DNA of 64,000 nucleotides from Trueperaceae bacterium. Its GTDB lineage: Bacteria; Deinococcota; Deinococci; Deinococcales; Trueperaceae. Below are positions 55,552 through 62,935 of the stretch, piece after piece; within the stretch, counting starts at the first letter, position 1; each line of letters starts with the position of its first letter. Where the stretch lies: contig JAABTL010000006.1 in NCBI GenBank assembly GCA_011389865.1, positions 1 through 64,000 of the forward strand, in the 5' to 3' direction. A program made the translations under genes and the position numbers. The notes under the pieces were generated by a model. It worked only from the letters and a program-made list of their open reading frames with translations, did not search any database and was not told the origin of the DNA.

Positions 55552-55776
55552 CTAGGCGCGCAGCCAGCGTTCGGTGGCGTTCGTGTCGCAGGTCGCCTTG
55601 AGGGCGCACCAGCCGCAGACGTTCGGTCCGCAGGCCAGGCGCCGGACGTAGCCGCGGCGCTCCAGGCGCTCGAGCTCGCGGTGCAGGTGCGCCTCCGGCA
55701 CCTCGAGCCGCCGCGCGAGCTCGTCGACGGTGGCCGGGGCCGCCAGCGCCTGGAGGACCTCGACGCTCAGGGCCAC
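55552..55776 (-). CDS. feoC: FeoC-like iron-transport regulator
   Basis: 74 residues. A winged-helix N-terminus (VEVLQALAAPATVDELARRLEVPEAHLHRELERLERRGYVRR) is followed by a cysteine cluster C-x4-C-x2-C-x5-C (CGPNVCGWCALKATC), matching FeoC proteins that bind an iron-sulfur cluster. It starts at GTG 55776, overlapping the feoB stop. It is the last gene of the feoABC operon and probably senses iron or oxygen to control FeoB stability or expression. Confidence 0.8.
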   Translation of the reverse strand: MALSVEVLQALAAPATVDELARRLEVPEAHLHRELERLERRGYVRRLACGPNVCGWCALKATCDTNATERWLRA

Positions 55777-57869
55777 AGCGCGTACACCCCCCACGCGAGC
55801 AGGTAGGCGATGGTCGTCTGGTACACGATCGAGAAGGCCATCCAGCGGGCGCCGAAGGCGTTGCGCAGGGCCGCGAGGGTCGCGATGCAGGGGACGTAGA
55901 GCAGCAGGAAGACCATGAAGGCCATGGCGCCGGCGGTCGTCAGTGAGCCTGAGAGACGCGCCGTCAGCACGCTGTCGACCTCGTCGCCGCCGCCGCCGAA
56001 GCCCCACAGCGAGGTGAGCGTGTCGCGCGCGGCCTCGAGCAGGCCGACGCCCAGGGCGCCGAGCCCCGCGAGGAAGCCGAGGGGCGCCGTCGCCTCGCCG
56101 CTGCCGACGAAGGTCAGCGCCATGCTGCCGATGGCGACCTCCTTGGCCACCGCTGCCGGAATGAGCGCGCCCACGATGCGCCAATCGCCGAGGCCGAGTG
56201 GCGCGAAGAGCGGCGCCAGCGTCCGCGCGACGGCCTCGAAGAGGCTGGTGCCGTTGGGCAGCGTGACCTCGAGCAGGAGCCAGATGACGCTCACGACGAG
56301 GAGAATGGGGCCACCGGCGCTCTGCAGGAAGGCGCGGGTGCGCGCCCACGCGAGCCGCAGGACGAGGCTGGCGGGCGGCCAGCGGTAGCTCGGGAGCTCC
56401 ATGGCGCCGCTGCCCTCGGGCGTGCGGAGGACCCGGCGGAACAAGAGGGCCGACGCGATGGCGACGGCGAAGCCGAGCACGTACAGGCCGGTCACGACGA
56501 CCGCGGCGTACGCGGGCACGAAGGCCGCGGCCATCAGGACGAAGACGGGCAGGCGGGCGCTGCAGGAGATCGAGGGCAGGGCCAGCGCCACCCGCAGGCG
56601 ATCGCCGCGCTCCTCGAGCATGCGCGTGGCCTGGATGGCCGGGACCGTGCAGCCGATCGACAGGACCATGGGCAGGACCGCGCGGCCCGGCAACCCGATG
56701 GCGCGCATCAGGCCGTCGGCGAGGTAGGCGACCCGGGCGAGGATCCCGGCGTTCTCCAGGAAGCCGAGGAGGACGAAGAGCACGAAGAGCACGGGCACGA
56801 ACGAGACCACGGTCCCGACGCCCTCGATGAGGGCGCCGGAGAGGAAGCTCGCGATCAACGGCGGTAGCGTCATCGCGGCCACCCAGCCGGCGGCGACCTC
56901 TTGCACGAGCCCGAAGAAGTCGATCCACGGCGTGGAGACCGCGAAGGTCAGGTGGAAGGTGAGCGCGAGGCCCGCGACGAGCGCCAGCGGACCGAGCACG
57001 GGGTGCAGCAACCAGCGGTCGACGCGCTCGCTGGGGTCGGCGCGGCGCGCGCGCTCGAGGGTCGCGCCGCCCGCGAGCTCGACCGCGGCACGGTGGCGCG
57101 CCTCCGCGATCGCCAGGAAGGGGTCGATGCCGGCGGCGTCGAGCGTCGCCCGCTCGGTCGCCGCGACGGCCCGCGCGGCCGGGGCGTCGGTCACCTCGGC
57201 GGAGAGGGTGGCGAGGGCGTGCCAGCGGCTGGCGACGTAGGGAGCGAGGCGCGCGGCGGCGTCGCGGATGGCCTCGGGGTAGGGGATCGTGGCAGGCGTC
57301 GCGCGGGCGCGCTCGGAGGCGTCCACGAGCCTCCCGGCGCCGTGGCGGCGGTGGTCGGGAAGGGCCACGACGGGCACGCCGAGGGCGGCCTCGAGGACGG
57401 CGGGTTCGAGCCCGACGCCGCGCTCGGCCGCCTGCTCGACGAGGTTCAGCGCCACGACCATCGGGCGGCCCAGCTCGGTGAGTTCCAGCGTGAGGGTGAG
57501 GTCGCGGGCGAGGTGCGTCGCGTCGACCACGTTGACGATGAGGGCCTCGGGGTGGGCCATGAGGGCGGGGAGGACGACGTCCTCCTCGGAGCTCGTGCCC
57601 GCGAGGGCGTAGGCGCCCGGGAGGTCGACGAGGGTGACGCGCGTGCCGCGGATGCGGGTGGTCGCGCTGGCGACCTCGACCGTGGTGCCGCTCCAGTTGC
57701 CGACCTGCAGCTGGCTGCCGGCGATCGCGTTGATCAGGCTGCTCTTGCCGACGTTGGGCGTGCCGACGAGGCACCAGGTCGTGGCGGCGTCGGTGGGCTC
57801 GACGCCGACGGAGGCCCGGTTCGCGGCGCCTTCCGAGGTGCCACCGCCGTCACACCGTGGGCAGGACAT
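55767..57869 (-). CDS. feoB: Ferrous iron transporter FeoB
   Basis: 700 residues. G domain: G1 GTPNVGKS (36-43), switch TT (GTTVEV), G3 DLPG (82-85). The G4 motif is N142-L-V-E145, where FeoB normally has N-x-x-D, the residue that selects guanine. The membrane part has about ten helices, with IGCTVPAI and LPSISCSARLPVF, the conserved cysteine-bearing gate sequences. It imports Fe(II). Residues 1-10 contain an extra C-x2-C pair (MSCPRC). The ATG lies inside the feoA 3' end (20-base overlap). Confidence 0.93.
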   Translation of the reverse strand: MSCPRCDGGGTSEGAANRASVGVEPTDAATTWCLVGTPNVGKSSLINAIAGSQLQVGNWSGTTVEVASATTRIRGTRVTLVDLPGAYALAGTSSEEDVVLPALMAHPEALIVNVVDATHLARDLTLTLELTELGRPMVVALNLVEQAAERGVGLEPAVLEAALGVPVVALPDHRRHGAGRLVDASERARATPATIPYPEAIRDAAARLAPYVASRWHALATLSAEVTDAPAARAVAATERATLDAAGIDPFLAIAEARHRAAVELAGGATLERARRADPSERVDRWLLHPVLGPLALVAGLALTFHLTFAVSTPWIDFFGLVQEVAAGWVAAMTLPPLIASFLSGALIEGVGTVVSFVPVLFVLFVLLGFLENAGILARVAYLADGLMRAIGLPGRAVLPMVLSIGCTVPAIQATRMLEERGDRLRVALALPSISCSARLPVFVLMAAAFVPAYAAVVVTGLYVLGFAVAIASALLFRRVLRTPEGSGAMELPSYRWPPASLVLRLAWARTRAFLQSAGGPILLVVSVIWLLLEVTLPNGTSLFEAVARTLAPLFAPLGLGDWRIVGALIPAAVAKEVAIGSMALTFVGSGEATAPLGFLAGLGALGVGLLEAARDTLTSLWGFGGGGDEVDSVLTARLSGSLTTAGAMAFMVFLLLYVPCIATLAALRNAFGARWMAFSIVYQTTIAYLLAWGVYALWP

Positions 57870-58284
57870 AGGCGTCTTCGGCGGGCGCCTGGCGGACCGG
57901 CATGCGAAGCGTGGACGGGTCGTCGACCTCGACCATGACGTCCCGGGCTTCGCAGGCGCGCAGCATGAGGTGGACGGTGCCGGCCCGCAGCTCGAGCGGT
58001 CCGTTGCCGGGCGCGCGGCCGAGGACGGCGAGCTCGGCGCTGGGCCGCAGCCCGAGGGCCATCAGGCGGCGCTGGAGGCGGGGCGCGCCGGCCAGGCTGA
58101 CCACGCGGGCGCAGCCGCCGCGCCCGAGCTCGCTGAGGGGGCAGACGACGCAGCAGGGGGCGCAGGCCGGCGGCGTACCGGTCTGCACCGCGGCCGACGC
58201 CGCCGGCATCGCGATCGTGGTCGCCGGCGTGGTCGCCGGCGCGGTCGCGTGCGCGGAATCCCCAGTCGCGAGGTCGGGTTTCAT
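57850..58284 (-). CDS. feoA: FeoA domain protein with Cys-rich N-terminal extension
   Basis: 144 residues. The last 85 residues are the SH3-like FeoA domain (VVSLAGAPRLQRRLMALGLRPSAELAVLGRAPGNGPLELRAGTVHLMLRACEARDVMVEV). It is preceded by an unusual stretch with four cysteines, C41-A-P-C44-C45-V-V-C48. FeoA activates FeoB. The ATG at 58284 is uncertain because an internal ATG at 58209 would still leave the Cys cluster in place; the region before it is Ala/Thr-rich. First gene of feoABC, placed 124 bases after the cytochrome stop. Confidence 0.8.
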   Translation of the reverse strand: MKPDLATGDSAHATAPATTPATTIAMPAASAAVQTGTPPACAPCCVVCPLSELGRGGCARVVSLAGAPRLQRRLMALGLRPSAELAVLGRAPGNGPLELRAGTVHLMLRACEARDVMVEVDDPSTLRMPVRQAPAEDAYVLPTV

Positions 58285-58351
58285 GTCGCCAGCATCGCGC
58301 CTGCCCCCGGGGGTCCGACAGGGACATCCTGCCCAGCGTCCCAAACGCGCA

Positions 58352-58379
58352 CGCGGGCCGCCCTCAGGGGCGGCCCGCG
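58352..58379 (-). terminator. Terminator hairpin after the cytochrome gene
   Basis: Perfect 12-bp stem with 4-base loop TCAG, 30 bases after the cytochrome stop and before feoA. It indicates that feoABC is transcribed separately. Confidence 0.7.
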
Positions 58380-58408
58380 CACGGTCCTTGGAGGTTTCTA
58401 GACGTCGG

Positions 58409-60670
58409 TCAGAAGGGGTCCGACGGGCGGGCCATGCCGCTGACGTCCCCGCCGAGGTCGGCGATCGAGTCGTGCAGCAACTGGATGACGTACTGGCTGT
58501 TGTGGACGTACGAACCGGGGTCCTTCTTGGCGTACTGGTAGTTGTAGGCGGCCCGCATGAGGCGCGGCGTCCAACTGCGGTACTGGTTGCCGTAGTTGAC
58601 CTCGTCGGCGTCCGCCGCGCCGTTGGCGTTGGTGTCGACGAAGAAGTACGGGTACGCGGCGCTGCTGTACACGATCGGCGTGCCGACGACGTCGCGGGCG
58701 TACGCCTGCAGCGCCTCGTCCAGCATCTCGACCATGTCGTAGATCTCGTAGTACGTGCCCTCGTCCTCGCTGCCGTCGCCGTCGAAGTCGCCGGGGAACT
58801 CGCGGATGTCGCGCAGGTCGGCGACGGTCGCCACGCCGGAGTGGCAGTCGGAGCAGGTGTTCACGATGTCGACCTGCTGGTTGTGCGGGTCGTGGCACTG
58901 CGTGCAGGTGCCGACGTCGGGGTCGTGGGGCCAGAAGCCGACGTAGTCCATGCCGGCGTACTGGTAGCCGCCCTGTGCCTCGCCGCCGAAGCGCGAAGCC
59001 GCGGCCGAGAAGTAGTGGACGTTGACGAAGCCGAGGCTGTCGGAGACCACGTCGTCCTCGACGCTGCCGATGCGCCGGTCGACGGTGGGCGTCGACGCGC
59101 GGCCGGAGTGGCACACGGCGCAGAGGTTGTCGCCGGAGGTGCCGAAGCTGAGCTCGGCGCCGCTGGGGAAGGTGACGCTGGCGACCTCGAGCAGGCCGTA
59201 GTCGGCGTCACTGATATGGCAGGTGGTGCACTCCATCCCGTCGGTCGGGGCGTGGGCGATCTGCGTGCCGTTCTGCACGAAGAAGGCCATCCCGTCGCCG
59301 CTGTGGCAGGTGGAGCAGCTCGCGGGCACGGCGCCGTCCTCGTCCCAGTGCCGCCAGGCCTCGGTGGAGCCGTCGAAGTGGCCCGCGTCGTTGCGATGCA
59401 GCCGCTCGATGACGCCGAGGTCGACGACTTGGGTGAGGGCGAGCGCGTCGCGCAGCGAGGCGATGTCGAGGCCGCCGGCGCTGGCCAGGATCTCGCCCGC
59501 GGGCTCGTCGCCCGGGCGGGCCAGGGCCACCGTGTTCGCCCCGAGCGCGCCGGCGAGGTCCTCGATGCTGTCGTAGACGATCTGGATCAGGTACTTGGCG
59601 TTGTGGGCGTAGCCGCCCGGGTCCTTCTTGGCGACCTGGTAGTTGTAGGTGGCCGCCAACAGCCGCGGGGTGAAGCTCGCGTAGGCGTTGCCGCGGTTCT
59701 GTTCTTCGGCCGAGATCGAGCCGTCGCCATCGCTGTCGTTGAAGAAGTACGGGTGCCCGTCGGCGTACCCGATCGGCTGGCCCACGACCTCGGTCGCGTA
59801 CTGCTGGATCAGGCCGAACAGGAGCGACCGGAGGTTGTACAGCTCGGTGTAGATGCCGGTCGTGATGTCGCCATCGCCGTCGTAATCGACGAACGAGCCG
59901 GGCGCGCGGATGTCACGCAGGTCCGCGACCGTCTCCACGCCCGTGTGGCACGTGGCGCAACTGGCGACGTCGAGTTGCAGGCTGTGCGGGTCGTGGCACG
60001 ACTGGCAGGTGGCGTAGCCCTCGGCGTGGTCGAAGCGCGGCTCGTACCACTTGCCTGGGTACTCGAACCCGCCGCCGGCGTCGGCGCCGTAGAGGGTGGC
60101 CGCGGCCGTGTAGTAGTGGATGTTGACGAAGCCCTGCTCCGCCATGACCTCGTCGTGGTCGACGCCCGCGCGCTCGATGGCGCCGACGATCGTCGCACCG
60201 CTGGCGCGGCCCTGGTGGCACTCCATGCACACGGCCTCGCGGCCGAGGCCGGTCAGCAGCTCGCCGGAGGGCATGGTGACCTCGGTCTGGGCGACCGTGA
60301 CGTCGTTGTGGCAGGTGGTGCACTGCAGGATGCCGGGCGTGGCGTCCGCGTCGACGGTCCCGGCCGCCGATCCGTCGAGGCCGATGAAGTCGTGGAAGCC
60401 CGCGTTGGCGTGGCACTTCGCGCAGCGGGCTGGCACCGCGACCGGGTCGCTGTTGTTCCAGTAGGTGAACGACCGGGACGTGAGGTCGGCGTGCGGGCTG
60501 CGGACCCAGCTGTCGAAGAAGGGGATCTCGAGCTGGTCGTACGTGAGGATCGGCGCCTCGCCCTGGGCGCTGGCCGTCAGGCCTGCCGGCGAGCCTCCGG
60601 TGTTGGCCGCGATCAAACCGATGCCGATCGCGAGCACGACGAGAACGGGAAGGAATGCGATGGGCCTCAT
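58409..60670 (-). CDS. Decahaem c-type cytochrome built of two pentahaem repeats
   Basis: 753 residues. An N-terminal export signal (about 5-22, cleavage near ASA-QG) is followed by ten CxxCH haem-binding motifs at 83, 117, 148, 222, 238, 452, 481, 517, 589 and 606. The halves 80-380 and 450-745 repeat the same plan: five haems with matching spacing, GFVNxHYxxAA...GG..Y, TVADLRDIR, and a closing TPRLxxAxYNYQxAKKDPG. Four acidic loops resemble EF-hand Ca-binding sites (DYDGDGD near 262, DSDGDGSISAEE 312, DFDGDGS 628, DTNANG 679). It probably shuttles electrons outside the membrane. No terminal reductase gene is adjacent. ATG at 60670 has GGAGGTGA and overlaps a leader ORF stop. I know of no exact family. 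Confidence 0.88.
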   Translation of the reverse strand: MRPIAFLPVLVVLAIGIGLIAANTGGSPAGLTASAQGEAPILTYDQLEIPFFDSWVRSPHADLTSRSFTYWNNSDPVAVPARCAKCHANAGFHDFIGLDGSAAGTVDADATPGILQCTTCHNDVTVAQTEVTMPSGELLTGLGREAVCMECHQGRASGATIVGAIERAGVDHDEVMAEQGFVNIHYYTAAATLYGADAGGGFEYPGKWYEPRFDHAEGYATCQSCHDPHSLQLDVASCATCHTGVETVADLRDIRAPGSFVDYDGDGDITTGIYTELYNLRSLLFGLIQQYATEVVGQPIGYADGHPYFFNDSDGDGSISAEEQNRGNAYASFTPRLLAATYNYQVAKKDPGGYAHNAKYLIQIVYDSIEDLAGALGANTVALARPGDEPAGEILASAGGLDIASLRDALALTQVVDLGVIERLHRNDAGHFDGSTEAWRHWDEDGAVPASCSTCHSGDGMAFFVQNGTQIAHAPTDGMECTTCHISDADYGLLEVASVTFPSGAELSFGTSGDNLCAVCHSGRASTPTVDRRIGSVEDDVVSDSLGFVNVHYFSAAASRFGGEAQGGYQYAGMDYVGFWPHDPDVGTCTQCHDPHNQQVDIVNTCSDCHSGVATVADLRDIREFPGDFDGDGSEDEGTYYEIYDMVEMLDEALQAYARDVVGTPIVYSSAAYPYFFVDTNANGAADADEVNYGNQYRSWTPRLMRAAYNYQYAKKDPGSYVHNSQYVIQLLHDSIADLGGDVSGMARPSDPF

Positions 60671-61981: not shown

Positions 61982-62842
61982 CTACTCGGCGGTCGCCTCG
62001 TCCCAGCCGTCGAGGAAGGCGTGCCAGGCCGCCTCGGCGGCGGTGAGCGAGAGGCCCAGGTGCAGCTCGAAGGCGACCAGCACGGCGGCCGTGTCGGGCG
62101 CCAGGTTGGCGTCGTCGAGGAACGCGCGGAAGGCGGCGATGCGCGCGGCGTCGCCGTGTCCTGGTCCGAGCAGGAAGGTGACGAACGAGCCCGCGGCCGG
62201 GTAGGTGACGCCGTCCGGCAGGGCGGTGAACGCCTGGTTGCCGTGCGCCAGGGGCGTGAGGGCCGGCAGCTCGCCCTGCTGGCGGGCGTCCTGGGCGTTG
62301 CCGTGCACCGTCTTGCCGTACCAGGCGCCGAGCCGCGGCGGCAAGCCACGCTCGACCAAGGTCGGTGCGTCGAAGTAGACCTCGGGCCAGGTGTAGGTCA
62401 TGGCGACGCCCTCCATCCAGAAGTTCGCCAGGCGCAGGGGGCGCGCGGTGGGCGTCGTCAGCACGTGCATCACCTCGTGGGCGTCGGCCGCGTGGACGCT
62501 GATGGTCGCGTCGTGCGCCAGGATCGCCCGGCCGTTGGTGTCCCAGCCGGTGAGCGCGTGCAGCGTCTCGCGGTCGGGGAAGGCGTAGTAGTCGATGCGT
62601 TCGGGCATGCGCCAGGCCGGACCGACCTCGTCCAGGAAGGTGAGCAGGCGTTGCAGGGCCGGGGCGGCAGGCTCCTCGTAGCGGGCGCCGACGAGCGTGA
62701 GATAACGCAGCTCCGTTTCGTGCACGACGCCGTCGGCCGCGACCTCCCAGTCCCCACGCGGGAGCCTGTCGTGGACCCAGGGGGTGCAGGCGGCGAGGGT
62801 GGCGACGCAACAGAGGGCGGCCGTGAGGCGACGTACGTCCAC
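61982..62842 (-). CDS. Lipoprotein with HExxH metallopeptidase-like domain
   Basis: 286 residues. A lipoprotein signal (VATLAAC, lipidated C19) precedes a domain with H122-E-V-M-H126 and a downstream E144 in FWMEGVA, the gluzincin zinc-ligand arrangement (HExxH...E). AGHNVxxx-type substrates cannot be deduced. GTG at 62842 has GAAGGGGAT upstream and places the signal correctly. Surface-anchored peptidase is the best guess, but activity is unproven. It lies between the alpha/beta hydrolase and the aldo/keto reductase, all in the same direction. Confidence 0.65.
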   Translation of the reverse strand: MDVRRLTAALCCVATLAACTPWVHDRLPRGDWEVAADGVVHETELRYLTLVGARYEEPAAPALQRLLTFLDEVGPAWRMPERIDYYAFPDRETLHALTGWDTNGRAILAHDATISVHAADAHEVMHVLTTPTARPLRLANFWMEGVAMTYTWPEVYFDAPTLVERGLPPRLGAWYGKTVHGNAQDARQQGELPALTPLAHGNQAFTALPDGVTYPAAGSFVTFLLGPGHGDAARIAAFRAFLDDANLAPDTAAVLVAFELHLGLSLTAAEAAWHAFLDGWDEATAE

Positions 62843-62935
62843 GTGATCCCCTTCCCGGCACCTGGCCCGACCGTAGGCCGAACGCATCCGGTCCGCTCGG
62901 GTCGCGCGTCCCCCCGGCCTCGCGGGCCGCTGGTG

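Follow-up and report, generated by a model that had tools for sequence, protein, structure and literature searches.

A decahaem cytochrome gene directly upstream of feo genes raises the question of what this protein does for its host, and whether its work has anything to do with iron. The window, that is, the whole stretch of 64,000 nucleotides from a Trueperaceae bacterium that was analysed, carries such a gene as an uninterrupted open reading frame on the minus strand. The first-pass annotation had described it as a ten-haem cytochrome formed by an internal pentahaem duplication, with EF-hand-type loops, which could link extracellular electron transfer with iron acquisition. The gene and its main parts are listed below.

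58409..60670, minus strand: decahaem cytochrome gene, 753 aa, two pentahaem modules (ORF with ten CxxCH)
60566..60670, minus strand: Sec-type signal peptide, residues 1-35, no lipobox (read from the sequence; cleavage site inferred between LTASA and Q)
59507..60553, minus strand: module 1, residues 40-388, five haems (module profile match and alignment)
59453..59506, minus strand: inter-module linker, residues 389-406, predicted disordered (pLDDT <50 at residues 386-418)
58418..59452, minus strand: module 2, residues 407-751, five haems (module profile match and AF2 model)

The CxxCH motifs start at positions 83, 117, 148, 222 and 238 in the first half and at 452, 481, 517, 589 and 606 in the second, making ten against a mean of 0.02 in the shuffled protein. 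The halves align with 44% identity over 338 aa (252 bits, E 6e-86), and 500 shuffles of half 2 with Cys and His fixed gave at most 47 bits, so that their likeness is not owed to the haem motifs and points to a true duplication. These sequence comparisons confirm a decahaem protein that arose by internal pentahaem duplication, as first annotated; the spacing, which had been called the same in both sets, proved similar but not identical (34/31/74/16 in half 1 vs 29/36/72/17 in half 2). The genome of the window holds one copy of the gene, and a Sec-type N-terminus like that of the window protein was seen in 14 of 14 Trueperaceae members checked.

The haem sites and the conserved histidines outside the motifs are given below.

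60410..60424, minus strand: haem site 1.1, CAKCH (83-87), invariant in 124 modules
60308..60322, minus strand: haem site 1.2, CTTCH (117-121), CxxCH motif, module alignment
60215..60229, minus strand: haem site 1.3, CMECH (148-152), CxxCH motif, module alignment
59993..60007, minus strand: haem site 1.4, CQSCH (222-226), CxxCH motif, module alignment
59945..59959, minus strand: haem site 1.5, CATCH (238-242), CxxCH motif, module alignment
59303..59317, minus strand: haem site 2.1, CSTCH (452-456), CxxCH motif, module alignment
59216..59230, minus strand: haem site 2.2, CTTCH (481-485), CxxCH motif, module alignment
59108..59122, minus strand: haem site 2.3, CAVCH (517-521), CxxCH motif, module alignment
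58892..58906, minus strand: haem site 2.4, CTQCH (589-593), CxxCH motif, module alignment
58841..58855, minus strand: haem site 2.5, CSDCH (606-610), CxxCH motif, module alignment
60491..60493, minus strand: His60, non-motif, presumed distal ligand (His in at least 99% of 124 modules)
60116..60118, minus strand: His185, presumed distal ligand (module conservation)
60026..60028, minus strand: His215, presumed distal ligand (module conservation)
59984..59986, minus strand: His229 (DPH after haem site 4), presumed distal ligand (module conservation)
59603..59605, minus strand: His356 (YxHN), presumed distal ligand (module conservation)
59378..59380, minus strand: His431, counterpart of His60 (module conservation)
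59015..59017, minus strand: His552, counterpart of His185 (module conservation)
58925..58927, minus strand: His582, counterpart of His215 (module conservation)
58883..58885, minus strand: His596, counterpart of His229 (module conservation)
58502..58504, minus strand: His723, counterpart of His356 (module conservation)

Among 124 non-redundant modules from several phyla, the five CxxCH motifs are essentially invariant, and exactly five further histidines stand at 99-100% (H60/H431, H185/H552, H215/H582, H229/H596 and H356/H723). This inventory makes it probable that a module binds its five haems independently, every one of them bis-His ligated by residues of the module itself. The same inventory bears on whether the protein could instead be an enzyme, namely a catalytic multihaem reductase of the NrfA/OcwA type acting on nitrite, hydroxylamine or sulfite. 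In favour of such an enzyme are the distant resemblance to NrfA and OcwA in profile and structure comparisons and the Cytochrom_C552 (PF02335) hits of 8 among 95 modules (E up to 0.01); the window protein gave no PF02335 match. Some NrfA-like enzymes use CxxCH, and a missing CxxCK alone does not exclude catalysis. Still, NrfA and our protein share five haems per module and a helical C-terminus but differ in that all ten window sites are CxxCH, a motif invariant in the family, with no CxxCK; module haem 1 lies opposite the CxxCK haem in the NrfA alignment yet reads CxxCH, and five spare invariant histidines per five haems leave no obvious open site. We therefore regard an enzymatic role as very improbable.

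Structure models were consistent with a remote relationship to these proteins. AF2 gave a pLDDT of 79.6 and a pTM of 0.75 for the full-length cytochrome, and 93.5 and 0.90 for module 2 from 95 rows; DSSP of the models found helices and a few short strands, with long helices after the fifth haem. A PDB sequence search with the single protein returned no useful match, and the module profile matched chain A of 6r2q, which we take to be MtrA although the PDB file names the chain otherwise (E 1.8e-5), OcwA (2.2e-5) and NrfA (about 5e-4). The top Foldseek match of the full model was OcwA (prob 1.00, weak E 0.033, target TM 0.34), and the single module matched mostly NrfA, again weakly (E at least 0.7, query TM up to 0.49), the matches being weak overall (best E 0.03, TM <0.5). 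The modelled fold is thus likely a remote NrfA/OcwA-like core without a catalytic site, and not MtrC-like.

OcwA, the nonahaem cell-surface terminal reductase of Thermincola potens, is a pentahaem unit fused to a tetrahaem unit, with two five-coordinate haems (open distal sites, haems 2 and 5) and one His-Met haem (PMC6703420). Like our protein it has C-terminal helices after the last haem, but it carries nine haems against ten sites here, the identity is about 15%, and the window cytochrome has ten spare conserved histidines, predicted ligands, for its ten haems; the word calcium is absent from the OcwA paper (PMC6703420). With MtrC, MtrF and OmcA, the cytochrome shares ten haems arranged as two pentahaem domains, whereas its models lack their beta-barrel domains (I and III), having few short strands, and its acidic loops set it apart. 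No MtrC structure was among the Foldseek matches. Membership of the MtrC family was rejected, the TIGR03507 score of 25.6 bits being far below the cut-off of 209.3; a passing PF22113 score (41.4 bits vs 30) was dismissed as a sign of kinship with MtrC, as this model is unspecific and also passes in MtrA-like and NapC-like proteins.

A further alternative is that the protein polymerises as a nanowire subunit like OmcS or OmcE. It is indeed multi-module, haem-rich and exported, and the module profile weakly matches OmcS (E 0.03); this match, however, spans only a short haem-pair stretch, and the histidine inventory is complete within each module, so no ligand from a neighbouring subunit is required. 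We consider a nanowire extremely unlikely.

The acidic loops occupy the following positions.

59843..59887, minus strand: acidic loop A of module 1, DYDGDGDITTGIYTE (262-276); loop A in 118 of 124 modules
59702..59737, minus strand: acidic loop B of module 1, DSDGDGSISAEE (312-323), EF-type 12-mer; loop B in 114 of 124 modules by a relaxed pattern permitting Asn/Ser
58745..58789, minus strand: acidic loop A of module 2, DFDGDGSEDEGTYYE (628-642), loop pattern
58601..58636, minus strand: acidic loop B of module 2, DTNANGAADADE (679-690), loop pattern

The pattern [DN]x[DN]x[DN]G occurs exactly four times in the cytochrome (residues 262, 312, 628 and 679), at equivalent places in both halves, a number reached in none of 5000 shuffles, and 109 of 124 modules carry loops A and B together. 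Loop A reads D-x-D-G-D-G-x4-G-x3-E, sharing the DxDGDG core with known calcium loops but placing its conserved Glu at position 15 (262-276, 628-642), unlike an EF-hand. Loop B (312-323, 679-690) has the canonical 12-residue spacing, with acidic residues or Asn at positions 1, 3 and 5, Gly at 6 and Glu at 12. In the AF2 models the chain runs from loop A into the first post-haem helix, and from there through a short pair of strands and loop B to the second; neither loop is part of a helix-loop-helix, and Pfam EF-hand models match only 5 of 95 modules. Dx[DN]xDG calcium loops are known from many contexts besides helix-loop-helix (Rigden et al., PMC3123361). Because the Glu of loop A is at position 15 and neither loop sits in a helix-loop-helix, we prefer the more cautious label 'Dx[DN]xDG calcium-type loop'; the recurrence of acidic loops at equivalent places stands, while the EF-hand term fits only the 12-residue sequence of loop B. 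We found no paper joining multihaem cytochromes with EF-hands or calcium, in a literature search that lay outside most subscription journals.

On the side of the stop codon, the cytochrome gene is followed by a hairpin and then the feo genes.

58344..58386, minus strand: long G+C-rich hairpin after the cytochrome stop, terminator-like, no T-run (MFE fold, z -1.77)
57850..58284, minus strand: feoA, neighbour outside the proposed unit (PF04023, E 3e-15)
55767..57869, minus strand: feoB, neighbour (FeoB_N, Gate, FeoB_C)
55552..55770, minus strand: protein with winged-helix matches occupying the feoC position, neighbour (none of the listed Pfam matches is to FeoC)

This arrangement invites the explanation of an iron-acquisition role, in which Fe(III) would be reduced by the cytochrome external to the membrane and the Fe(II) handed to the adjacent FeoB. 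The same-strand order of cytochrome, feoA, feoB and winged-helix gene recurs in five genomes of one genus, the window's and four others (L034, L035, L036 and L038), down to 65% protein identity, and single-module relatives of the cytochrome adjoin ferric-reductase-type proteins. PF01794 proteins serve other roles too, and the family name is no test of iron reduction. Against this explanation, feo adjacency was not seen outside the phylum, nor in those other genera of Trueperaceae whose flanks could be read; the gap of 124 nt to the likely feoA start holds the strong hairpin, which the terminator scan did not call because it has no T-run; and no good Fur-like box was found. For these reasons a general functional link to feo was rejected, the feo adjacency is most likely genus-level synteny, and iron reduction for FeoB is decidedly unlikely. 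The iron part of the first-pass proposal thus falls away, while its extracellular electron transfer part gains indirect support from the contexts of homologues. On the other side of the cytochrome gene, two genes upstream, the ORF at 61982-62887 of the window (minus strand) encodes 301 aa that begin like a lipoprotein and match no Pfam family.

Three kinds of neighbour recur beside homologues in other phyla. In 5 of 5 Acidobacteriota/Aminicenantes loci (L024, L032, L137, L138 and L139) two genes stand immediately upstream of the cytochrome gene, one for a decahaem MtrA/DmsE-like protein and one for a protein of ~620 aa. The former matches TIGR03508 (E 4e-48, below the curated cut-off) and MtrA in 6r2q (E 2e-22); the latter is a weakly identified barrel (two members match OMP_b-brl and one the GSU2204 family), for which the PDB gave no match, to MtrB or otherwise. 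The homologues thus occupy the mtrC position, and the cytochrome most likely fills the MtrC role in the Acidobacteriota loci, as far as gene order can tell, yet stands outside the MtrC family. Among Anaerolineae, 9 of 13 two-module loci have a cytochrome b561 close to the gene, and 7 of 8 single-module loci have, next to it, a protein with ferric-reductase transmembrane, FAD and NAD domains. Judged by eye, N-termini of lipoprotein type are present in about half of the Anaerolineae forms; the simple pattern applied to them overlooks a few and calls a few too many. Anaerolineales genomes rich in multihaem proteins but lacking porin-cytochrome complexes were reported earlier (PMC7399161), and the Chloroflexi isolate Ardenticatena has been reported to respire on an electrode (PMC5808234); neither paper shows the two-by-five-haem cytochrome at work. 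Near the cytochrome gene of one other Trueperaceae genus lie genes for a DOMON-domain protein and for two small membrane proteins (L044:3690-4241, L045:5120-5671).

The window's organism presents a different picture. No MtrA-like, barrel, b561 or ferric-reductase-type genes were found near the cytochrome in nine Trueperaceae loci, the ~620-aa predicted barrel was absent from all 13 Trueperaceae genomes searched, and TIGR03508 never reached its cut-off in Trueperaceae genomes. Since input modules, barrel and TIGR03508 matches are missing there, surface location and export lack context support in this organism, in which the cytochrome gene is an orphan with no input module found adjoining. A ferric-reductase-type donor was also sought in the own genome and set aside, the match being partial and confined to the donor's C-terminal part. 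The genome encodes an alternative complex III (ActD E 3e-63, pentahaem ActA); in the profile searches that gave the inventory of its multihaem proteins, passing PF14522 matches fell on ActA only. Such a setting would suit a carrier or store in the periplasm, relaying or buffering electrons that pass between alternative complex III and terminal reductases in solution, and the Sec signal without a lipobox, together with the failure to find an outer-membrane conduit in the Trueperaceae searches, agrees with it. What counts against a periplasmic carrier comes from the relatives: the MtrA-like and barrel genes directly upstream in every Acidobacteriota/Aminicenantes locus, and the lipoprotein signals of about half of the Anaerolineae forms, in which surface anchoring fits presumed monoderms better. 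We hold this reading to be somewhat unlikely.

Homologues are widely but unevenly distributed. Besides the window's own genome, 15 Trueperaceae genomes gave a strong match, and records of Chloroflexota, Planctomycetota, Myxococcota and Aminicenantes contain homologues at ~40-50% identity. In Anaerolineae (the class of the genome of L027, a Caldilineaceae record), the two-module form or a large part of it was present in roughly 70 of the 298 genomes searched, and a single module in a frame of ~370-450 aa in over a dozen of the 298; within the phylum of the Aminicenantes genome G111, 4 of 247 genomes gave a strong match. No characterised member was found, so that no known family with an established role covers these homologues and the family is apparently uncharacterised. 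The number of modules per protein is one (Anaerolineae), two (the common form) or three (Myxococcota), and is not fixed at two: a Myxococcota gene (L023:5254-9060) encodes three tandem pentahaem modules with 15 CxxCH.

In a tree of 124 modules, first and second modules split by position and not by organism, with 3 and 4 changes of module position vs about 41 in shuffles; eight single modules of Anaerolineae group beside first modules, and the row L014, labelled 'single', is a truncated contig. Because modules cluster by position rather than by organism, the duplication is, on the module sequences, ancient and older than the spread over phyla. Three members from Trueperaceae branch separately from the others in this tree, which would suggest that the family acquired the gene twice; we do not claim this, as an AU test on the joined modules does not reject one Trueperaceae clade (p 0.79).

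Several other observations concern individual members. A Chloroflexi contig, that of L026, carries a run of cytochrome genes with 10, 10, 22, 29 and 32 CxxCH (L142:5844-19015), two of which belong to the two-by-five-haem family. The first part of the gene in the Aminicenantes genome G121 (2060254-2060952, L081) and the rest (2106354-2107931, L077) lie ~45 kb apart, as if by insertion or rearrangement. Profile matches in G541 (L099) and G111 (L075) contain an in-frame TAG, which may come from sequencing error, gene decay or overrun of the match, and a same-order genome (G101) encodes a 374-aa pentahaem protein with a weak module match and without the DxDGDG loop (L064:3401-4525).

Overall, we see a slightly better than even case that the cytochrome is a Ca-stabilised, extracytoplasmic and probably surface electron relay of two pentahaem modules, doing the job of MtrC with a different fold. 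It has ten haem sites and would be exported, and the five extra invariant histidines of each module suffice in number for bis-His ligation of all its haems. Each module would have a remotely NrfA/OcwA-like haem core, closed by the helices that come behind haem five; two acidic loops, one on either side of the first such helix, would probably bind Ca2+ and lock it. To go by the contexts of homologues, electrons would enter from a trans-membrane source, either an MtrA-like protein with a barrel or a cytochrome b561, or in the single-module form from a ferric-reductase-type flavocytochrome, and would pass from haem to haem towards an extracellular acceptor. For Trueperaceae we can only guess at the donor, which may be alternative complex III acting through a soluble cytochrome. 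A bolder version, unlikely in our estimate, would make this a phylum-crossing family of surface outlets built from one to three copies of Ca2+-locked pentahaem modules, served by three unrelated inputs and with electron transfer dependent on external calcium or gated by it.

The occurrence of the same uncharacterised protein beside different electron-supplying systems suggests a widespread, interchangeable electron outlet. If the relay reading is true, a structurally distinct, modular surface cytochrome would join the few known terminal cytochromes, an NrfA-like fold could occupy the MtrC position of a porin-cytochrome system, and the conserved calcium-type loops could make calcium dependence directly testable. 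The outlet would then also be widespread in Anaerolineae, where the machinery of extracellular electron transfer is little known.
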